Shown here piece after piece: positions 28,677 to 59,534 of a DNA stretch of 64,000 nucleotides (the stretch's first letter is position 1; every line of letters starts with the position of its first letter). The DNA comes from Gemmataceae bacterium (GTDB lineage Bacteria > Planctomycetota > Planctomycetia > Gemmatales > Gemmataceae), in NCBI GenBank assembly GCA_009697105.1, contig SIAQ01000012.1:1-64000 (forward strand). Reading direction: 5' to 3'. The position numbers and the translations under genes are program-made. The notes below the pieces were generated by a model that saw nothing but the letters and a program-made list of their open reading frames with translations, searched no databases and was not told the origin of the DNA.

Positions 28677-30068
28677 ATGGCGACCATCAGCTTCACGTGC
28701 CCCCATTGCGAGAAGGTTCTGCGCTCCACTCAGCGACCTCCCGCGGGACGCAACGTCAAATGCCCCGCGTGCAACGAGGGCTTCGTTCCCGAACTGGATA
28801 ATGACGAAGCCACCGGCATCCAGGAGGAGCCTCGCCTGAAATCCAAGGCCAAAGCCGTTGACGACGACGTCGAAGAGGTGGACGTTGACGAGGTCGATGA
28901 CGACGAGAAACCTCGCAAGAAAAAGAAAAGCAATCGCGACGACGATGACGAAGACGATGGTGGCGCCCGAAAGAAGAAGAAAGGTAAAAAGAAAGCCGGC
29001 GCGAACAAGATGCTCGTCTACGGCGGTATCGCGCTGGTCGGCATTGGCGGGCTGTTGAGTTGCGTCCTCGTGGGCGTCGGCGCGTTCGTTTGGCCGGGGT
29101 TTTTGCTCTCGAAAGATTCGGCTCTGTTCGCCTTCGTCGCTCCTGATGCCAACGTCGTAGTGTACGCCGACCTCAAACAAACGCGTACACGAATGGAACC
29201 CCTCGAAAAGATGGTTCGTGAGCAGAATCTAGGCAAGAACCCTGGTCAACTTGAAAACAACGCCATGATGGACCTGATGAAGAACGCCGACAAACTGGTC
29301 TTCTCCGGCAACATGGCCAAATCGAAAGATTCAATGACGGTCGTCGTTCAGGTTCCTGCCGCGGAGGTTGAGAAATTCAAGAAATCGCCCGGCATGGGCG
29401 CACCAACTACCATCGGCGGCCATGCCAATGTGTATAAGCCAGCCGGCGGCGGAGGCGGAAGATTGCTGCCCCAGTTCGTGGCATTCCCCGCAGCCGACAT
29501 TGTCGTCTTCGCCGATCAGCCAGAGGCCGATTTCATCCGTGTTCTCGATCGCGGCAAGAAGGGCGTGCAGCCAAACGCCGCCATCGACCTTGGCAAATCC
29601 GCGAGTGGTTCGCTCGTTTGGGTCGCTGTCGTGTTTAACGCCGAAATGCGCAAAGACATGAAGCAGACACTCCAGAAGTTCGGCGCCGCATCGAAAAAAA
29701 TGGGAGCTGCCGCGACTGCGGTCGATGGTTGTAAAGGCATTATAATCTCGTTCGATGCGACGAACAAACAGGATCTGAAAATCGCCGCGACCCTCACTTG
29801 CAAAGATGCAGTCGATGCGGTGAAGATGAAAGATGGCCTCGACGATGGTTTCAACCAACTTCGCGGCTTTCTTGCCCTGATGCAGAATGCCGGCGGGATG
29901 ATGCCCGGGCAGGCGGAAATGCCAAAGGGGATCATTCAAGACCTCAATTCCACAGCCTTTCATTCTCAAGGAAACAATGCCACCGCGACGCTGACGATTA
30001 CCTCGCAATCGCTACAGGAGTTGGCACGCTTCGGCGAGAAAAAGGGCGGCATGGGGTTCTTTCCGTAA
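28677..30068 (+). CDS. Zinc-ribbon, charged-linker membrane protein
   Basis: 463 residues. Residues 8-32 form a small zinc ribbon (CPHC ... CPAC). Residues about 45-110 are an Asp/Glu tract followed by Lys-rich stretches ([13 protein letters not shown]). Residues 112-139 are one hydrophobic helix ([20 protein letters not shown]). The remaining roughly 320 residues are a mixed domain beginning [20 protein letters not shown] that resembles the DUF-type planctomycete proteins of this architecture; I cannot name it. The C-terminal domain is predicted to face the periplasm. Function unknown. Charged disorder next to a ribbon suggests a cytoplasmic binding partner for the N-terminus. Confidence 0.75.
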
Positions 30069-33025: not shown

Positions 33026-33102
33026 CGTTTAGCCGATCGCCTCTGGCGAGCGCGAATTGCGATCGCTACATGTCGCGCTCGCCAAAGGCGATCGGCTAAA
33101 CG
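33026..33102. repeat. Palindrome family B (GTTTAGCCGATCGCC)
   Basis: Arms CGTTTAGCCGATCGCC + GGCGAGCGCGA (33026-33055) and the complement at 33073-33102. Each arm contains its own 7-bp hairpin GATCGCC/GGCGAGC-like pairing. It separates the two coiled-coil subunit genes. Family: 52379, 54943, 59459. Confidence 0.92.
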
Positions 33103-33107
33103 GGCTG

Positions 33108-34823
33108 TTAATCCTGCACATTTTCTTTCGTCATCGGCACGCGCAGCGGTTCCAGGATTGGGTAGGCACGCAGGAAAGTCTGCACGCCTTCGGTGGAAAC
33201 CTGGAAGCGGATGACGGGACGATACGGCGGCTCGTCGGGGCGTACCGAGGCCTGGCGTCGCGCGATCAGGTTGGCGACGTGCTTGAGCAGTGCCGCATCG
33301 GTCGCGGTGTCGTCTGCGTTTTTCCAACGAAACTGCGTGCCGCCTGGGAAGACGGTGATGTGTTCGGCATAGCTATCGAGCGTGATCACGAAATCCTTGT
33401 CGCCGATGATTCGACCCAGCGGCGGCACCGGCGCTGGCTTGTCTTTCGGCTCGGCGCTGCCGAATTCTGGCGCAGACCGATCGAGGGGCGATCCGTTCTT
33501 GCTCGGCGGATTCGGCGACGTGCTGCCACCATTGCCGGATTCCGGCGGTTTGATCGGTAACAGCGGGCGATCGGGATTGTTCGACGCAATCGGCTGCCCG
33601 AAGGAGGCCTCGGTGGACGGCATCTTGCCAACCGGCACAAACGACGGACGCTGCACTGGTATGCCCGTATCGACTCTTGGATTCGCAGGACCTTGGCCGT
33701 TTGGCAGACTCGGTGCAAAAGGCGAAACTGAAGAAACGGGCGACTTGACGCCAAATGTCGGATTCGGGGTCTCGATGCCGGCGGCAATCGATGCTAGCGA
33801 ACCACCCGCGCCGAGCGGGCTGCTGCCGGCGATGGTGGACTCACTTGGCGGCGGGAGCGTGCCTGGCGTTCGTGGATGGATCTGTTCGCGCGGCTTCATC
33901 GCAACGCCCGGCGGGGATTGTGGGCGTCCCTTCGCGAAATCGAAGGTCCACTCGGCGTCGATTAACTCATAGCCAAAGTCGATTTGGTAGCCACGCAACA
34001 CCGCTTGGGCTTTGTAGTAGCTCGTGATACCGTCGGGCCGCACCAGAAATAACACGTATGGGCCGGTCTTTTCTTTCAATTCCGCTCGGCCCTTGTCTTT
34101 CTCGACAGGTTGGGGCACGAGTTTGCCGGCCCGTGTTTCGATGGCCTCGCGAATGGATTCCAACGTGAAACCGAAGTCGAGGCGTTCATGACCATCGGGT
34201 TGAAAGATGATGCCGCTGGCGACGCATTCGACGTAGATCGGCTTGCGGAATTCGCCCTGTCTACCTCGATAGGGAATGAGCGAGTAGACTGCTTGTTCCT
34301 CTGTTTTGAGCGCGCGAAGTTGACGCAGCGTGACTTCGAGATCGGCCAATTCCTTGGCGGCTTCGAGCAACTCGGTATTGGTGGCCGTCGCCTTGTTGGT
34401 GTACTTCGTTATGCCCGAGCGCTGGCTTTCGATCGCCAGTCGCAGTTCGCCGATTTTTGCGGATTCGGCAGCGATTTTGGCTTCTGCTTCGATATGTTGC
34501 GCTCGGATGACTTCGAGCGTTTGCCCCGACTGCGCAATCTTTCGGCGTTCGGCTTCGGTCCGCTCGGTGAGTTTCGCGTGCTCGGTCATCAGGTTGCGAC
34601 GCAGTTTTTCCTTGGCTTGTTCCCATTCCGCCTTGCGGGCGTCTTCGTCGGCTGTCGAGCGTTTTTCTTTTTTGGAAAGCAGTTCGGCTGCGTGATGTTG
34701 AGCCGCGATTTTGGCTCGGCGATCCATGATAAAGAGCAACAGCAAGAGCGATCCCATCGCGCAGAGAAGGACTGCGAGAAACGGGAACGTCGAGACCTGC
34801 AGTTTGCTTCGCGGTCGTCTCAT
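33108..34823 (-). CDS. Single-pass coiled-coil protein (subunit B)
   Basis: 571 residues. Short basic N-terminus, then one helix STFPFLAVLLCAMGSLLLLL, then about 160 residues of heptad-like coiled coil (residues 35-190, Glu/Lys/Arg/Ala). A domain at about 195-320 contains PIYVECVASGIIFQPDG and GPYVLFLVRPDG. It is followed by a Pro/Gly/Ser-rich linker (about 330-450) and a C-terminal domain ending VIRFQVSTEGVQTFLRAY. The helix lacks the acidic residue expected in MotB/ExbD. The middle domain resembles the neighbouring smaller protein. It probably assembles with the channel subunit encoded upstream (34938) to form an envelope machine. Confidence 0.75.
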   Translation of the reverse strand: MRRPRSKLQVSTFPFLAVLLCAMGSLLLLLFIMDRRAKIAAQHHAAELLSKKEKRSTADEDARKAEWEQAKEKLRRNLMTEHAKLTERTEAERRKIAQSGQTLEVIRAQHIEAEAKIAAESAKIGELRLAIESQRSGITKYTNKATATNTELLEAAKELADLEVTLRQLRALKTEEQAVYSLIPYRGRQGEFRKPIYVECVASGIIFQPDGHERLDFGFTLESIREAIETRAGKLVPQPVEKDKGRAELKEKTGPYVLFLVRPDGITSYYKAQAVLRGYQIDFGYELIDAEWTFDFAKGRPQSPPGVAMKPREQIHPRTPGTLPPPSESTIAGSSPLGAGGSLASIAAGIETPNPTFGVKSPVSSVSPFAPSLPNGQGPANPRVDTGIPVQRPSFVPVGKMPSTEASFGQPIASNNPDRPLLPIKPPESGNGGSTSPNPPSKNGSPLDRSAPEFGSAEPKDKPAPVPPLGRIIGDKDFVITLDSYAEHITVFPGGTQFRWKNADDTATDAALLKHVANLIARRQASVRPDEPPYRPVIRFQVSTEGVQTFLRAYPILEPLRVPMTKENVQD

Positions 34824-34872
34824 GGCGTTGCCTTGGGAGTTCGACTACCTATACACTTGGAAATCAGTCCGC

Positions 34873-34934
34873 ATCGCCGCTTGCGGCTTAGCGTCCGCTA
34901 GGCGCCATGCGAGCGCTAAGCCGCAAGCGGCGAT
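34873..34934. repeat. Palindrome family A between channel and subunit B genes
   Basis: ATCGCCGCTTGCGGCTTAGCG (34873-34893) and its complement (34914-34934) are perfect over 21 nt. It lies between the stop of the channel gene and the start of subunit B, about 4 and 50 bases away respectively. Confidence 0.92.
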
Positions 34935-34937
34935 TCA

Positions 34938-38309: not shown

Positions 38310-38365
38310 GCTTACCAGCGGATCGCGAGCGCCATCTCGCGCTCCGCTGCGCGTCGCGGCTAAAC
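38310..38365. repeat. Degenerate family B palindrome
   Basis: A loose inverted repeat made of GCGGATCGCGAGCGCC and GCGCTCCGCTGCGCG, followed by GTCGCGGCTAAAC, the typical right end of family B. It lies just before the DUF1501 gene at 38384. Confidence 0.55.
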
Positions 38366-38383: not shown

Positions 38384-39820
38384 ATGCACCCACCTCTCTC
38401 TCGACGCGAATTCCTCTGGCAGTACGGCGGCGGGCTGGGCGGCATCGCGCTGGCGTCGTTGCTGAATGGCGATGGGCTGTTGGCACAGGAACGCGCTCCG
38501 CAAAGCGGAGCGGCTAAACGGGACGGAATTCATCATCGCGCCAAGGCGAAGCGCGTCGTGCAGTTTTTCATGTCCGGGGCGGCCAGCCAGTGCGATACCT
38601 TCGACTACAAGCCGATGCTCATCGAGCGCAATGGCCAGGCGTTTGACCCCGGCGGGCGCGTCGAGCTTTTTCAGTCCAATCCGGGCCACGTGATGGCGTC
38701 GCCCTGGCGTTGGCGGCAGCATGGTCAATCCGGCAAATGGATCAGTGACCTGTTGCCTCACATCGCCAGCTGCGTGGACGACATCGCCTTTATCCCATCA
38801 ATGGTCGCCCGGTCGAACGTGCACGGCCCGGCGACGTTCATGCAAAACACCGGCTTCGTCCTGCCCGGCTTTCCCGCCATGGGAGCGTGGATCAACTACG
38901 GCCTGGGCAGCATGACCGACAACCTGCCCGCGTTCGTCGTCATCCCCGATTCACGCGGCTACGCTCCCAACGGCCCCGCCAACTGGAGTGCGGCGTTCCT
39001 GCCCGCCAGCCATCAAGGCACGACGATTCGGCCCAGCGACCGCAACCCGATCTTCGATCTCTTCCCCGGCCCCAACAACTACATCACGCCCCAAAGCGAG
39101 CGCGACGGCCTCGCGCTGTTGCAAGAGATGAATCGCCGACACAGCGAAACTCGCCCCGGCGACACCCGGCTTGAAGGCCGCATCCAGACCTACGAGCTCG
39201 CTGCAAGGCTACAACTCAGCGCTCCGGAGGTGCTCGACATCGCCCGGGAGACGCGCGAAACGCACCGGCTCTACGGCCTCGACGAGCCGATCACCGCCGA
39301 GTTTGGCCGCAATTGTCTGATCGCCCGCCGCTTGCTCGAACGCGGCGTGCGCTTTGTGCAAATCTGGTCCGGCGCGGACAACGGCTTCCCACGCCGAAAT
39401 TGGGATTCGCACGAACATCTTCAGCGCGACCACGGCGATATGGGCACCAGCATGGATCGGCCGACGGCGGCACTCATCAAGGATCTGAAACGCCGTGGCT
39501 TGCTCGACGACACGATCGTGATGTGGACGACGGAGTTCGGTCGCATGCCGTGCAGCCAGGGCAGTCTGGGCCGCGATCACAATCCGTTCACGTTTACGAC
39601 ATGGATGGCAGGCGGCGGCATCAAAGGCGGCGTGACGTATGGCGCCAGCGACGAGTGGTCGTTCCGCGCCGCCGAGGATCCGACGTATTGCTACGACGTG
39701 CACGCCACGATGCTGCACCTGCTCGGCATCGACCATACCCGGCTAACGTATCGCCACAACGGCATCGATCGCCGCCTGACCGATGTGCACGGCCATGTGA
39801 TTAACGAGATCGTAGCGTGA
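38384..39820 (+). CDS. DUF1501 family exported protein (3)
   Basis: 478 residues. Tat-like leader SRREFLWQYGGGLGGIALASLL; family landmarks FFMSGAASQCDTFDYKP, FVVIPDSRGYAPNGPANW, GRMPCSQGSLGRDHNPF and GGIKGGVTYGASD. Residues about 38-46 (RAPQSGAAKRD) coincide with a palindrome-like segment at 38493-38520 (CGCTCCGC AAA GCGGAGCG) that appears to be an in-frame insertion relative to related proteins. Its DUF1549 partner, normally adjacent, is not found next to it. Confidence 0.92.
   Translation: MHPPLSRREFLWQYGGGLGGIALASLLNGDGLLAQERAPQSGAAKRDGIHHRAKAKRVVQFFMSGAASQCDTFDYKPMLIERNGQAFDPGGRVELFQSNPGHVMASPWRWRQHGQSGKWISDLLPHIASCVDDIAFIPSMVARSNVHGPATFMQNTGFVLPGFPAMGAWINYGLGSMTDNLPAFVVIPDSRGYAPNGPANWSAAFLPASHQGTTIRPSDRNPIFDLFPGPNNYITPQSERDGLALLQEMNRRHSETRPGDTRLEGRIQTYELAARLQLSAPEVLDIARETRETHRLYGLDEPITAEFGRNCLIARRLLERGVRFVQIWSGADNGFPRRNWDSHEHLQRDHGDMGTSMDRPTAALIKDLKRRGLLDDTIVMWTTEFGRMPCSQGSLGRDHNPFTFTTWMAGGGIKGGVTYGASDEWSFRAAEDPTYCYDVHATMLHLLGIDHTRLTYRHNGIDRRLTDVHGHVINEIVA
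38493..38520. repeat. Palindrome half inserted in coding sequence
   Basis: CGCTCCGC (38494-38501), AAA, GCGGAGCG (38505-38512), then GCTAAAC (38513-38519), which matches the end of family B elements. It lies within the DUF1501 gene and keeps the frame, encoding the residues RAPQSGAAKR after the leader. Confidence 0.7.
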
Positions 39821-39869
39821 TTGACGGCTCGCCAATGCGTTCTTACTGCCCGAAAGCGAAGTTAAGTGC

Positions 39870-42446: not shown

Positions 42447-43445
42447 CTAACACCACATCCGTTTGTCAACGACGTTCAGCAACCTCTCGCCTTTCACGAA
42501 TCGCCGCAGATTCGCTAACAGCGTCTCCAGATGCCGCTCCGGTACACGCGGTGAGGCAGCGGCGCAGTGCGGCGTCAGGATCACGTTTTCCATGTTCCAC
42601 ATCGGATGTCCCGCAGGCAACGGTTCCGTTTCGAGCACATCCAACCCGGCCCCAGCGATCTCGCCCGCTTGCAATGCCGCTGTCAGGTCCGCCAGATCGA
42701 CGATTACACCGCGACCGACGTTGATGAGGTACGCGTTTTTCTTCATTTGGCGAATGCATTCGCGATTGAAGAGCTTGTAGGTCTCCGGCGTATGCGGGGC
42801 GGCGATGACGACGAAGTCGCATTGGCCCAACATTTCCGCGAGATGGCTAGGCCGATAGATCGCACAGCCGACGGGCGCGTCCTCGGCACGCGGATCGACG
42901 CTGAGAACACGCATGCCGAACGCCAGACCGCGCTCGGCAACGGCAATGCCAATTCCGCCCAAACCGACGATGCCGAGCGTGCAATCGCCGAGCGTGATGG
43001 CGGCACAATCCGAGGGATGCACTTCGCCCGGTCCGCCGTAGCCAGGCAATTCGCCCGCATCGCGGCCGAGCATCCGCCATTCGCCGCGCATTTGCTGACG
43101 CAGATAAACATGAAAGTTTTTGGCGAAACAGATTATGTAGCCGAACACATGATCGGCAATGACATCGCTGAAAATTCCACGCATGTTCGTCACGATCACG
43201 GGTGAAGCGACGAGGTCGGGATACAGATATTTCTCCATGCTCGCCGTCGGCGATTGGGCCCACCGCAATCGTTTGGCCGCCAGGAGGAGGCGCGGCGTGA
43301 GGTAGCCGAACAGCGCGTCGGCGTCGGCGATCTCCGCCGCAGCGATGTCGTCGTTCGCTGCGTTGACGACGTGCATCGGCTGAGCGGCGGCAACGATTTT
43401 CGCCAGGCGCTCGTCCGAAATGGGTGGTGAAATGACCAGCTTCAT
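42447..43445 (-). CDS. D-2-hydroxyacid dehydrogenase (NAD-dependent)
   Basis: 332 residues. Dinucleotide-binding motif GIVGLGGIGIAVAERG followed by VDPRAED, the catalytic Arg in INVGRGVIVD, the Glu region after LDVLETEPLP and the catalytic His in ILTPHCAAASP. These are the standard landmarks of the family that includes glyoxylate, phosphoglycerate and lactate dehydrogenases. Length fits single-domain-pair members without an ACT domain. Substrate cannot be told. Cytoplasmic. It is divergent from the cyclase gene at 43690, with two palindromes in between. Confidence 0.93.
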   Translation of the reverse strand: MKLVISPPISDERLAKIVAAAQPMHVVNAANDDIAAAEIADADALFGYLTPRLLLAAKRLRWAQSPTASMEKYLYPDLVASPVIVTNMRGIFSDVIADHVFGYIICFAKNFHVYLRQQMRGEWRMLGRDAGELPGYGGPGEVHPSDCAAITLGDCTLGIVGLGGIGIAVAERGLAFGMRVLSVDPRAEDAPVGCAIYRPSHLAEMLGQCDFVVIAAPHTPETYKLFNRECIRQMKKNAYLINVGRGVIVDLADLTAALQAGEIAGAGLDVLETEPLPAGHPMWNMENVILTPHCAAASPRVPERHLETLLANLRRFVKGERLLNVVDKRMWC

Positions 43446-43467
43446 CGTACGATCTCCGTAGGGAATT

Positions 43468-43508
43468 CCGCTTGCGGCTCGGCGCTCCGAGCACTAAGCC
43501 GCAAGCGG
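43468..43508. repeat. Short palindrome family A, divergent region
   Basis: CCGCTTGCGGCTCGGCGCTC (43468-43487) and GAGCACTAAGCCGCAAGCGG (43489-43508) pair with two mismatches and almost no loop. It lies upstream of the minus-strand dehydrogenase start. Confidence 0.85.
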
Positions 43509-43570
43509 CGCTCCCGCACATGACTATACTTCGCGAGGCTGAAAATGTCGTATTCTCGGACGAATCGAGC

Positions 43571-43659
43571 CTTTTCCGAGCCGCGACCGTCAGGGAGCGG
43601 CCGACAGCGAACGCACGGCATCTCGTAGGCCGCTCCCTGACGGTCGCGGCTCGGAAAAG
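43571..43659. repeat. Perfect 32-nt palindrome, divergent region
   Basis: CTTTTCCGAGCCGCGACCGT... (43571-43602) and its exact complement (43628-43659) flank a 25-nt loop. It ends 31 bases before the cyclase start. This is the longest perfect pair in the window. Similar GAGCCGCGACCGT palindromes are familiar from Gemmata-like genomes, from memory. Confidence 0.93.
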
Positions 43660-43689
43660 CGACAATCCCACCTGTCGAAGGTTTAACCT

Positions 43690-52378: not shown

Positions 52379-52459
52379 GTTTAGCCGCTCGCTTTTGGCG
52401 AGCGCGAACTGGTTTCCATGCGAAGCCCGGACGCGCTCGCCCAAGGTGAGCGGCTAAAC
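52379..52459. repeat. Palindrome family B
   Basis: GTTTAGCCGCTCGCTTTTGG (52379-52398) and its right arm ending GAGCGGCTAAAC (52459). Two mismatches would be G-U or U-G in RNA. It lies between the dehydrogenase and SNF2 genes. Confidence 0.9.
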
Positions 52460-54942: not shown

Positions 54943-55006
54943 GGTTAGCCGATTGCCTGTGGCGAGCGCGGGGTTGGACGCGCTCGCCACAGGCGATTGG
55001 CTAAAC
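54943..55006. repeat. Palindrome family B between convergent genes
   Basis: GGTTAGCCGATTGCC + TGT + GGCGAGCGCG (54943-54970) and the complement 54979-55006. Mismatches become G-U pairs in RNA; the middle triplet TGT/ACA is complementary. Confidence 0.92.
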
Positions 55007-57740: not shown

Positions 57741-57812
57741 GCGGGTGTAGCTCAGTGGTAGAGCGTCACGTTGCCAACGTGAATGTCGTGGGTTCGAGCC
57801 CCATCACCCGCT
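57741..57812 (+). tRNA. tRNA-Gly (anticodon GCC)
   Basis: Acceptor GCGGGTG pairs with CACCCGC, D-arm GCTCAGTGGTAGAGC, anticodon loop TTGCCAA (GCC at 57773-57775), T-arm with GTTCGAGCC. No CCA is encoded. A TTTTTT follows at the end and probably ends the transcript. Confidence 0.97.
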
Positions 57813-57881
57813 TTTTTGTTGGATACCGCGTCTCGCAATGATACCGTGCTCACGTTTCGTGGGCCGTTGAATTTCCTGCTC

Positions 57882-57940
57882 GAAAAAACGATGTCAGGTT
57901 CCTTTTTTCTCTCCGAAAAAGGTTCCTGGCATCGTTTTTC
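57882..57940. repeat. Hairpin in the trigger factor leader
   Basis: AAAAACGATG-x-CAGG at 57882-57897 and CCTGGCATCGTTTTT at about 57925-57940 pair, with AAAAA/TTTTT flanks and a short loop CTCTCC. It lies 23 bases before the trigger factor ATG and could affect its translation or terminate the tRNA transcript. Confidence 0.75.
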
Positions 57941-57962
57941 TCCCTGTGAAAGGTGTCGCATC

Positions 57963-59456
57963 ATGACCGATGAATCGGCCACTATGACTCCAGATGCTCC
58001 GGTTATCGAAGAAGGTGCCAGCGGCGACGCTCCCGAAGCGAAAAAGAAGATCAAGCAGTCCGTGGACATTCAGGACATTGGCCCGTGCAAGAAGCACATC
58101 AAGGTCACTGTGCTGCGCGAGGACATCGAGAAGAACATTCAGGAAAAGTATAAGGAACTTGTCGGCGAATCGTCGATTCCCGGCTTCCGTCCAGGCAAGG
58201 CACCGCGGAAGATCGTCACGCAGCGATTTCGCAAGGATGTCTTCGATAAGGTCAAAGGCGAAATCCTACTCTCAAGTCTCGATCAGCTAGCGGAGGACTT
58301 TGACGTCGCCCCGCTTAGCCCGCCGAATCTCGATCCGGCGAACCTGTTCATTCCTGAAGAAGGCGACTTCGTTTATGAATTTGATGTCGAAGTACGCCCC
58401 CACTTCGATCTGCCTGAGTACAAGAGTCTGAAACTTCGCAGGCCGATCCGCACGTTCTCTGAAGCGGACATTGACGAAGAACAAAAGAAAATCCTGTCGC
58501 AAGAAGGCCAACTAGTACCCAAGGACGGCCCGGCCGAACGCGGCGATTACATCGTCGTTGACATGGTCACCACTTTCGCCGGCGAAAAAGTCGGTGAGGC
58601 ACCGGAAATTACGCTTCGCATCGACGATACCATGTCGTTCAAAGACGGCGTGGCCACCAAGTTTGGCGAGCAGGTCATTGGTGTCAAGGCCGGCGAGAAA
58701 CGCAACGTTGATATTTCGATGACGGAATCGGTTTCCAATCCCCAACTCAAGGGTCAAACCATTCTGGCGGCGCTCGATATCAAGGACGTAAAACGACTGC
58801 GTCTGCCCGAGATGGATGACTTGTTCCTCGAACGCTACGAATGCAAAACTATCGACCAGTTCCGCGAAAAAATTCGGCTGGTACTTGATCGCCGACTGGA
58901 ATACGCCCAGCGCCAATCGATCCGCGAACAGGTGCTTGCGTTGATCACATCGTCGGCAACCTGGGAATTGCCTCAAGACCTTTTGCGACGCCAGGCCCGC
59001 AACGCCTTGTCGCGCCGCGTCATGGAAATGAAAGAATCGGGCATTTCCGAAGACGAGATCAAGGGTCGCCAACGCATGCTTGAGCGCGACGTACTCTCCA
59101 CGACTGCTCAGTCGATGAAAGAGCATTTCGTCTTGCAGAAAATTGCGGAGCAGGAAAAATTGGAAATCGACCACGGAGATGTTGACCAGGAAATTGACCG
59201 CATTGCCGAGGTCTATAAAGAATCGCCACGCCGTATTCGCGCTCAACTGGAACGCGACGGCCAACTCGAAACGCTGGCCGCGCAGCTGATCGAACGCAAG
59301 GCGTTGAATCGGATTCTTGAAACCGCGGAATACGAAGACGTGGCCACCGATCGCGACGGCGGTATGGCGACTGTTGACACTCAGGCCGTGCAAGGCGAGA
59401 TGCACGATCCGACGGCCGTACCGCCTGCCGTTGAGGATACGAATCCGGAAGCGTGA
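57963..59456 (+). CDS. tig: Trigger factor
   Basis: About 497 residues, longer than typical 430-450. The N-terminal ribosome-binding signature GFRPGKAP occurs at about residues 75-85, preceded by an acidic extension (TMTPDAPVIEEGASGDAPEA) not found in E. coli. Middle FKBP-like PPIase domain (AERGDYIVVDMVTTFAGE), then the helical C-terminal chaperone domain with the RMLERDVLSTTAQSMKEHFVLQ region. The C-terminus has an extra approximately 40-residue acidic tail. It binds the ribosome exit tunnel and assists folding of nascent chains. Start at ATG 57963, after the tRNA and hairpin; longer frames run into the tRNA. Confidence 0.95.
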   Translation: MTDESATMTPDAPVIEEGASGDAPEAKKKIKQSVDIQDIGPCKKHIKVTVLREDIEKNIQEKYKELVGESSIPGFRPGKAPRKIVTQRFRKDVFDKVKGEILLSSLDQLAEDFDVAPLSPPNLDPANLFIPEEGDFVYEFDVEVRPHFDLPEYKSLKLRRPIRTFSEADIDEEQKKILSQEGQLVPKDGPAERGDYIVVDMVTTFAGEKVGEAPEITLRIDDTMSFKDGVATKFGEQVIGVKAGEKRNVDISMTESVSNPQLKGQTILAALDIKDVKRLRLPEMDDLFLERYECKTIDQFREKIRLVLDRRLEYAQRQSIREQVLALITSSATWELPQDLLRRQARNALSRRVMEMKESGISEDEIKGRQRMLERDVLSTTAQSMKEHFVLQKIAEQEKLEIDHGDVDQEIDRIAEVYKESPRRIRAQLERDGQLETLAAQLIERKALNRILETAEYEDVATDRDGGMATVDTQAVQGEMHDPTAVPPAVEDTNPEA

Positions 59457-59458
59457 AA

Positions 59459-59534
59459 TGTTTAGCCGCTCGCCACTGGCGAGCGCGGACTGGAGAATTG
59501 CAGTACGCGCTCGCCAGTGGCGAGCGGCTAAACA
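59459..59534. repeat. Palindrome family B, perfect 29-nt arms
   Basis: TGTTTAGCCGCTCGCCACTG... (59459-59487) and its complement (59506-59534). Each arm is itself a hairpin (GCTCGCC ACT GGCGAGC). It lies between the trigger factor and TIGR03067 stops, so convergent. Confidence 0.95.

Follow-up and report, generated by a model that had tools for sequence, protein, structure and literature searches.

The trigger factor gene (57783–59456, + strand; Pfam Trigger_N and Trigger_C) ends at a stop codon that marks the slot of a palindromic doublet at 59460–59533 of the window, by which we mean the whole 64,000-nucleotide stretch of DNA that was analysed. Two arms (59460–59485, +; 59508–59533, −) face each other across a spacer (59486–59507), and the doublet is separated by 3 nt from the trigger-factor stop and by 12 nt from the stop of a convergent gene on its other side. 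A single spacer base distinguishes it from its orthologue in a sister genome. The source genome of the window (G000) is a draft of 5.4 Mb in 187 contigs, 92% complete, and the sister (G004), recorded as Singulisphaera sp. GP187, Planctomycetota, is ~95% identical to it; both are draft MAGs.

An earlier note on the window had listed four copies of this family, which we call family B, with shared ends, and all four are present (33027–33101, 52379–52459, 54943–55006 and 59460–59533). The copy at 52379–52459 belongs to the 29-nt-spacer class and lies 23 nt past a glutamate-dehydrogenase-like stop, in a slot where the sister copy has another spacer, while that at 54943–55006 is enclosed by two convergent stop codons, each at a distance of 8 nt. 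The latter begins GGTTAGCC; the window copies otherwise run GTTTAGCC...GGCTAAAC. The stem and loop exchanges described in the note are likewise there: GATCGCC/GGCGATC in the outer stem at 33026 against GCTCGCC/GGCGAGC at 59459, and ACT/AGT in the loop at 59459 against TGT/ACA at 54943. Its statement that most mismatches at 52379 and 54943 would be G-U pairs holds as a count (two of the three arm mismatches in each, on the + strand), but at 54943 they arose by recent decay (G2, T12 and T opposite G9) of a copy that is still perfect in the sister. Two single arms were also found on the − strand, a B2-type arm GTTTAGCCGCGACGCGCAGCGGAGCG at 38340–38365, whose sub-family flanks a RAYT gene elsewhere in G000, and a related arm GTTTAGCCGCTCCGCTTTGCGGAGCG at 38494–38519. 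An Rfam search of the window returned a tRNA as its sole match.

The family B arm is 26 nt long (GTTTAGCC-GCTCGCC-TTT-GGCGAGCG; head, outer stem, loop triplet and inner stem), and a doublet consists of two facing arms with heads outward and a spacer of 8–57 nt, for which certain lengths are preferred, 29 nt being the commonest. Using the arm pattern with ≤3 mismatches, we counted 454 arms in G000 (1 for a reversed-pattern control) and 652 in G004 (control, 0). Other congeners held 227, 147, 41, 1 and 0 arms; in two further genera of the same taxonomic family the counts were about 150 and 208, and the outer stem there is changed to GCGAGCC. Doublets were drawn from 1.2 Mb of G000 and 1.5 Mb of G004 (2.7 Mb total), in stretches skewed towards contigs carrying family B copies. 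All were inverted (65/65 in the 1.2 Mb of G000; 70/70 in a second set), and copy number, uniform orientation and RNA folding z together place the family B palindromes beyond chance. Across all copies, head (GTTTAGCC) and inner stem (GGCGAGCG) are almost invariant, and both recur in the two other genera, which indicates that sequence is conserved alongside structure and so is not free. Spacer-less solo forms, GTTTAGCCGCTCGCC-TTT/AAA-GGCGAGCGGCTAAAC, occur at G004:C1 about 30022–30054 and at G000:C76:40289–40321, as expected for the product of deletion between direct repeats inside a doublet.

Genes were called with a home-made gene caller, whose gene starts are approximate. Only 8/151 doublets lay within called genes, and the distance from stop codon to doublet was ≤30 nt in 146/152 measurements (median 7 nt). 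The head itself supplied the stop codon TAG in 7/98 co-directional cases (distance −6). About 30% of called genes carry some strong inverted repeat behind the stop.

Matching between the two arms exceeded that of shuffled arms in both genomes, bearing out the covariation that the earlier note had proposed. Among the 65 G000 doublets, variants shared between arms numbered 13 in the loop (2.5 when shuffled) and 8 in the outer stem (1.4 when shuffled), both with P of about 5e-4, the lowest value that the test can return. The G004 doublets gave 16 (2.8 when shuffled) and 11 (1.1 when shuffled), respectively, orthologous copies in the two genomes being non-independent. The inner stem had 2 shared variants in G000 (0.5 when shuffled) and none in G004, the head had none in the doublets of either genome, and no excess of pairing was seen beyond the head into the flanks.

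For 26 equal-length doublets, pooled from both genomes and including a few orthologues, so that not all are independent, the long hairpin formed between the arms had 8 pairs changed on both sides versus 4.2 when shuffled (0/500), and the two short hairpins formed within the arms had 1 versus 0.9. For 34 outer-stem variants only the long pairing provided the match, for 3 only the arm's own stem and for 6 both, in a tally that counts both arms and thus scores each matched doublet twice. The predicted RNA fold of all copies tested was one long hairpin (z = −10 to −16; −57 to −73 kcal/mol). Together, these results demonstrate that the arms covary as one long hairpin and disfavour the three-stem structure that had been suggested; each arm can fold alone, as was also claimed, but the predicted minimum is the single long hairpin.

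We then compared orthologous copies between the sister genomes. An orthologous site in G004 was identified for 21 G000 doublets, 14 of which keep the spacer, with spacer substitutions of 2.8% and 4.3% of arm bases changed. Matched double changes were found in 2 of the 14, comprising four base pairs, each changed to a new Watson-Crick pair. The window copy at 33027–33101 has A-T at outer-stem pair 10 in G000 and C-G in the sister, with the spacer unchanged. The second element (L038:16566/L176:4841) differs at pairs 9, 10 and 12, with GCTCGCC in G000 and ATTTGC/GCAAAT in G004, and the ATTTGC variant was absent from every other copy in the 2.7 Mb sampled, with no donor seen. A fifth site among the 14 changed on both sides without matching. 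Under a simple null, the probability of at least two elements with matched doubles is about 0.02, and counted by base pairs about 1e-4 or less (3.6e-6 for 5 doubles, one unmatched). With the spacer unchanged and both sides of a pair altered in step at one site, the pairing is restored in place as well as inherited; the evidence for this comes from two elements. For the pairing between arms, these changes support the earlier note's reading of selection or copying for structure, not sequence, although the near-invariant head and inner stem show that sequence is conserved too. No two spacers within a genome were alike over 70% of their length, and a search for spacer donors and copies found no within-genome pair, so the covariation does not come from recent duplication and withstands the objection that copies might be identical recent duplicates. 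At several slots both genomes hold family B, with another spacer in the sister (L037:17942 vs L141:6071; L102:12777 vs L161:14821; also L052:9282 and L104:10454). The unusual left arm of L102 was kept despite the new spacer, which suggests partial replacement of the element.

We consider it probable that family B is a REPIN-like element whose pairing is maintained chiefly in DNA, by template switching. Copies, possibly mobilised by a RAYT-type HUH transposase of the sort that a sister sub-family flanks, would build up in 3′ intergenic slots right behind stop codons, where two inverted REP-type arms could fold into one 26–35 bp hairpin in single-stranded DNA (or RNA). Once one arm mutates, a hairpin formed during replication would allow the polymerase to use the changed arm as template for the other, the copying presumably starting from the paired inner stem. 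Such quasi-palindrome correction would give matched, sometimes multi-base changes at a fixed locus. DNA copying between arms would account for the clustering of matched changes, for loops that match and for an inner stem that does not; a head without between-arm matching argues against the copying of whole arms, and template switching leaves the head unexplained. Template switching as the cause is our inference, and so would be any role of the transcribed hairpin.

Alternatively, selection on a transcribed 3′ RNA hairpin, acting through mRNA end protection, ribosome stalling at the stop or termination, would fix compensatory mutations. The short distances from stop codons and the predicted stability of the RNA hairpins are consistent with this, as is the retention of a hairpin in orthologous slots although the family changes, and E. 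coli REPs ≤15 nt from the stop codon are reported to stall ribosomes (cited in PMC12306157). Pairing in RNA should, however, leave sense-strand mismatches as G-U and not A-C, and in co-directional slots we counted 68 G-U and 55 A-C, about one standard deviation from equality and no clear excess, which gives no support to RNA as the level of selection. The inner stem, though equally paired, shows little or no matching, and three matched pairs within 7 nt at about 5% divergence are hard to reach stepwise, although all three are transitions and so remain compatible with sequential mutation and selection. Nor is there a U-tract after the stem as in an intrinsic terminator: read on either strand, a doublet ends in GGCTAAAC, and the window copies are not followed by a run of U. 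We hold selection on the RNA hairpin to be somewhat unlikely.

It is improbable that symmetric variants were only ever inherited from symmetric masters through whole-unit transposition, without in-situ repair. Some symmetric variants do recur at several loci (GTTCGCC x4, GCTCGCT x4), and a symmetric outer stem is genus-wide in other genera, but at two orthologous loci, where spacer and flanks are shared between the genomes, each genome has its own symmetric variant. That each arm is a functional hairpin of its own, as in a classical REP, is very doubtful: each arm pairs over 8 bp around a 3-nt loop (94.7% of cells paired) and a few arms show own-stem compensation (e.g. GTTCGCC/GGCGAAC), but the short hairpins do not covary above shuffles, the changes to GATCGCC and ATTTGC disrupt pairing within the arm and leave the long pairing intact, the GCGAGCC outer stem of the two other genera has two mismatches to its own GGCGAGC, and the predicted fold is the long hairpin.

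Comparing 193 orthologous intergenic regions of G000 and G004, we found the same palindrome family in 89, a different family in 23, a palindrome lost in 8, gained in 8 and none in 65, some of the slots scored as none holding diverged palindromes on inspection. Loss and gain were strongly coupled across orthologous slots (odds ratio 13–23, P 1e-6 to 4e-10). No clean empty orthologous site was found for family B, the slots holding the same or another palindrome. In the trigger-factor slot the two sisters have family B, and G001, G002, G003 and G006 have other inverted repeats; five different inverted repeats occupy it among six congeners (59460–59533; L058–L062). Gain, loss or swap of unrelated families (A CCGCTTGCGGCTTAGCG, B, C, D, E and F) was also observed between the window at 34823–34937, 39820–39869 and 43445–43689 and the orthologous regions of G004. 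The swapping may reflect a functional requirement for a hairpin or the targeting of palindromes by new ones, and slots that differ in tolerance may contribute. As a tentative extension, gene 3′ ends of this planctomycete lineage might be exchangeable slots that need a strong hairpin, with unrelated families swapping within about 5% divergence and template switching keeping their symmetry. A literature search found, under the terms used, no published slot swapping of unrelated palindromes.

Covariation is usually taken to prove that an RNA structure is under selection. With dispersed copies in the hundreds and a sister genome 95% identical, family B allows selection to be separated from copying of arms at the DNA level, and coupled swapping behind the same stop codons makes the question of useful versus tolerated repeats directly testable.

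R. baltica, also a planctomycete, is named in earlier work for its wealth of tyrosine transposase genes and of repeats that flank them (Di Nocera 2013, PMC3733652). In G000, sub-family B2, which has the head of family B with a different stem, forms doublets on both sides of a RAYT-like gene (L004; Y1_Tnp, with HIH and YVEENP intact in translation) that scores 30.9 against the NCBIfam RAYT cut-off of 80 and lies above the Pfam Y1_Tnp cut-off; among solved structures the protein had only weak IS200/IS605 matches. At L004 1239–1305, the head GTTTAG gives the stop TAG both to the upstream ORF (19–1242) and to the opposite-strand RAYT-like ORF. Another RAYT-like gene (L005, 202 aa) has an inverted doublet of a different palindrome family, ACCCGCGCAGGCTCCTTCGTCGCCTGCGGGCTTG, on both sides (1353–1432 and 1993–2071) and is a candidate REPtron of that family. 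The RAYT genes in L001, L002 and L003 had no high-copy repeats at their flanks. We found no RAYT gene flanked by family B itself in the sampled genomes, and the congener G003 has RAYT homologues and no B copies, which argues against RAYT mobilisation of family B. The L004 arrangement can be likened, by description, to the terminal inverted repeats (TIRs) of TIRYT genes, or TIRtrons, in that self-complementary, non-GTAG repeats flank a RAYT-like gene, and TIR families likewise have dispersed, often dimeric relatives of the flanking repeats; here, in contrast, only the B2 sub-family is seen at the gene (PMC3733652).

Family B is REPIN-like, with membership not established. The strict definition of a REP includes a 5′ GTAG or GTGG tetranucleotide before the palindrome (PMC3686654), which is absent from the nearly invariant family B head, whereas a palindrome of 20–40 nt, high copy number and extragenic location are all present. 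REPINs are inverted REP doublets with a long hairpin, in which compensatory changes on either side are common (Bertels & Rainey 2011, PMC3116915), and the REPIN architecture of two inverted arms and a spacer forming one hairpin is matched by the orientation, folds and long-hairpin covariation of family B. The two also share conserved arms, preferred spacer lengths, extragenic location and hundreds of copies; they differ in that the family B head is GTTTAGCC, without the GTAG/GTGG tag, and in the cognate RAYT, which we did not find for B. Compensatory changes in REPINs were thus already known (PMC3116915), and what is seen here is matched change at the same locus between sisters. Template switching makes multibase compensatory changes and maintains the hairpins of RNA genes (Monttinen & Loytynoja 2022, PMC8794818). 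As in that system, the multi-base compensatory changes and matched loop changes of family B could each arise in one DNA event, in dispersed palindromes instead of RNA genes.
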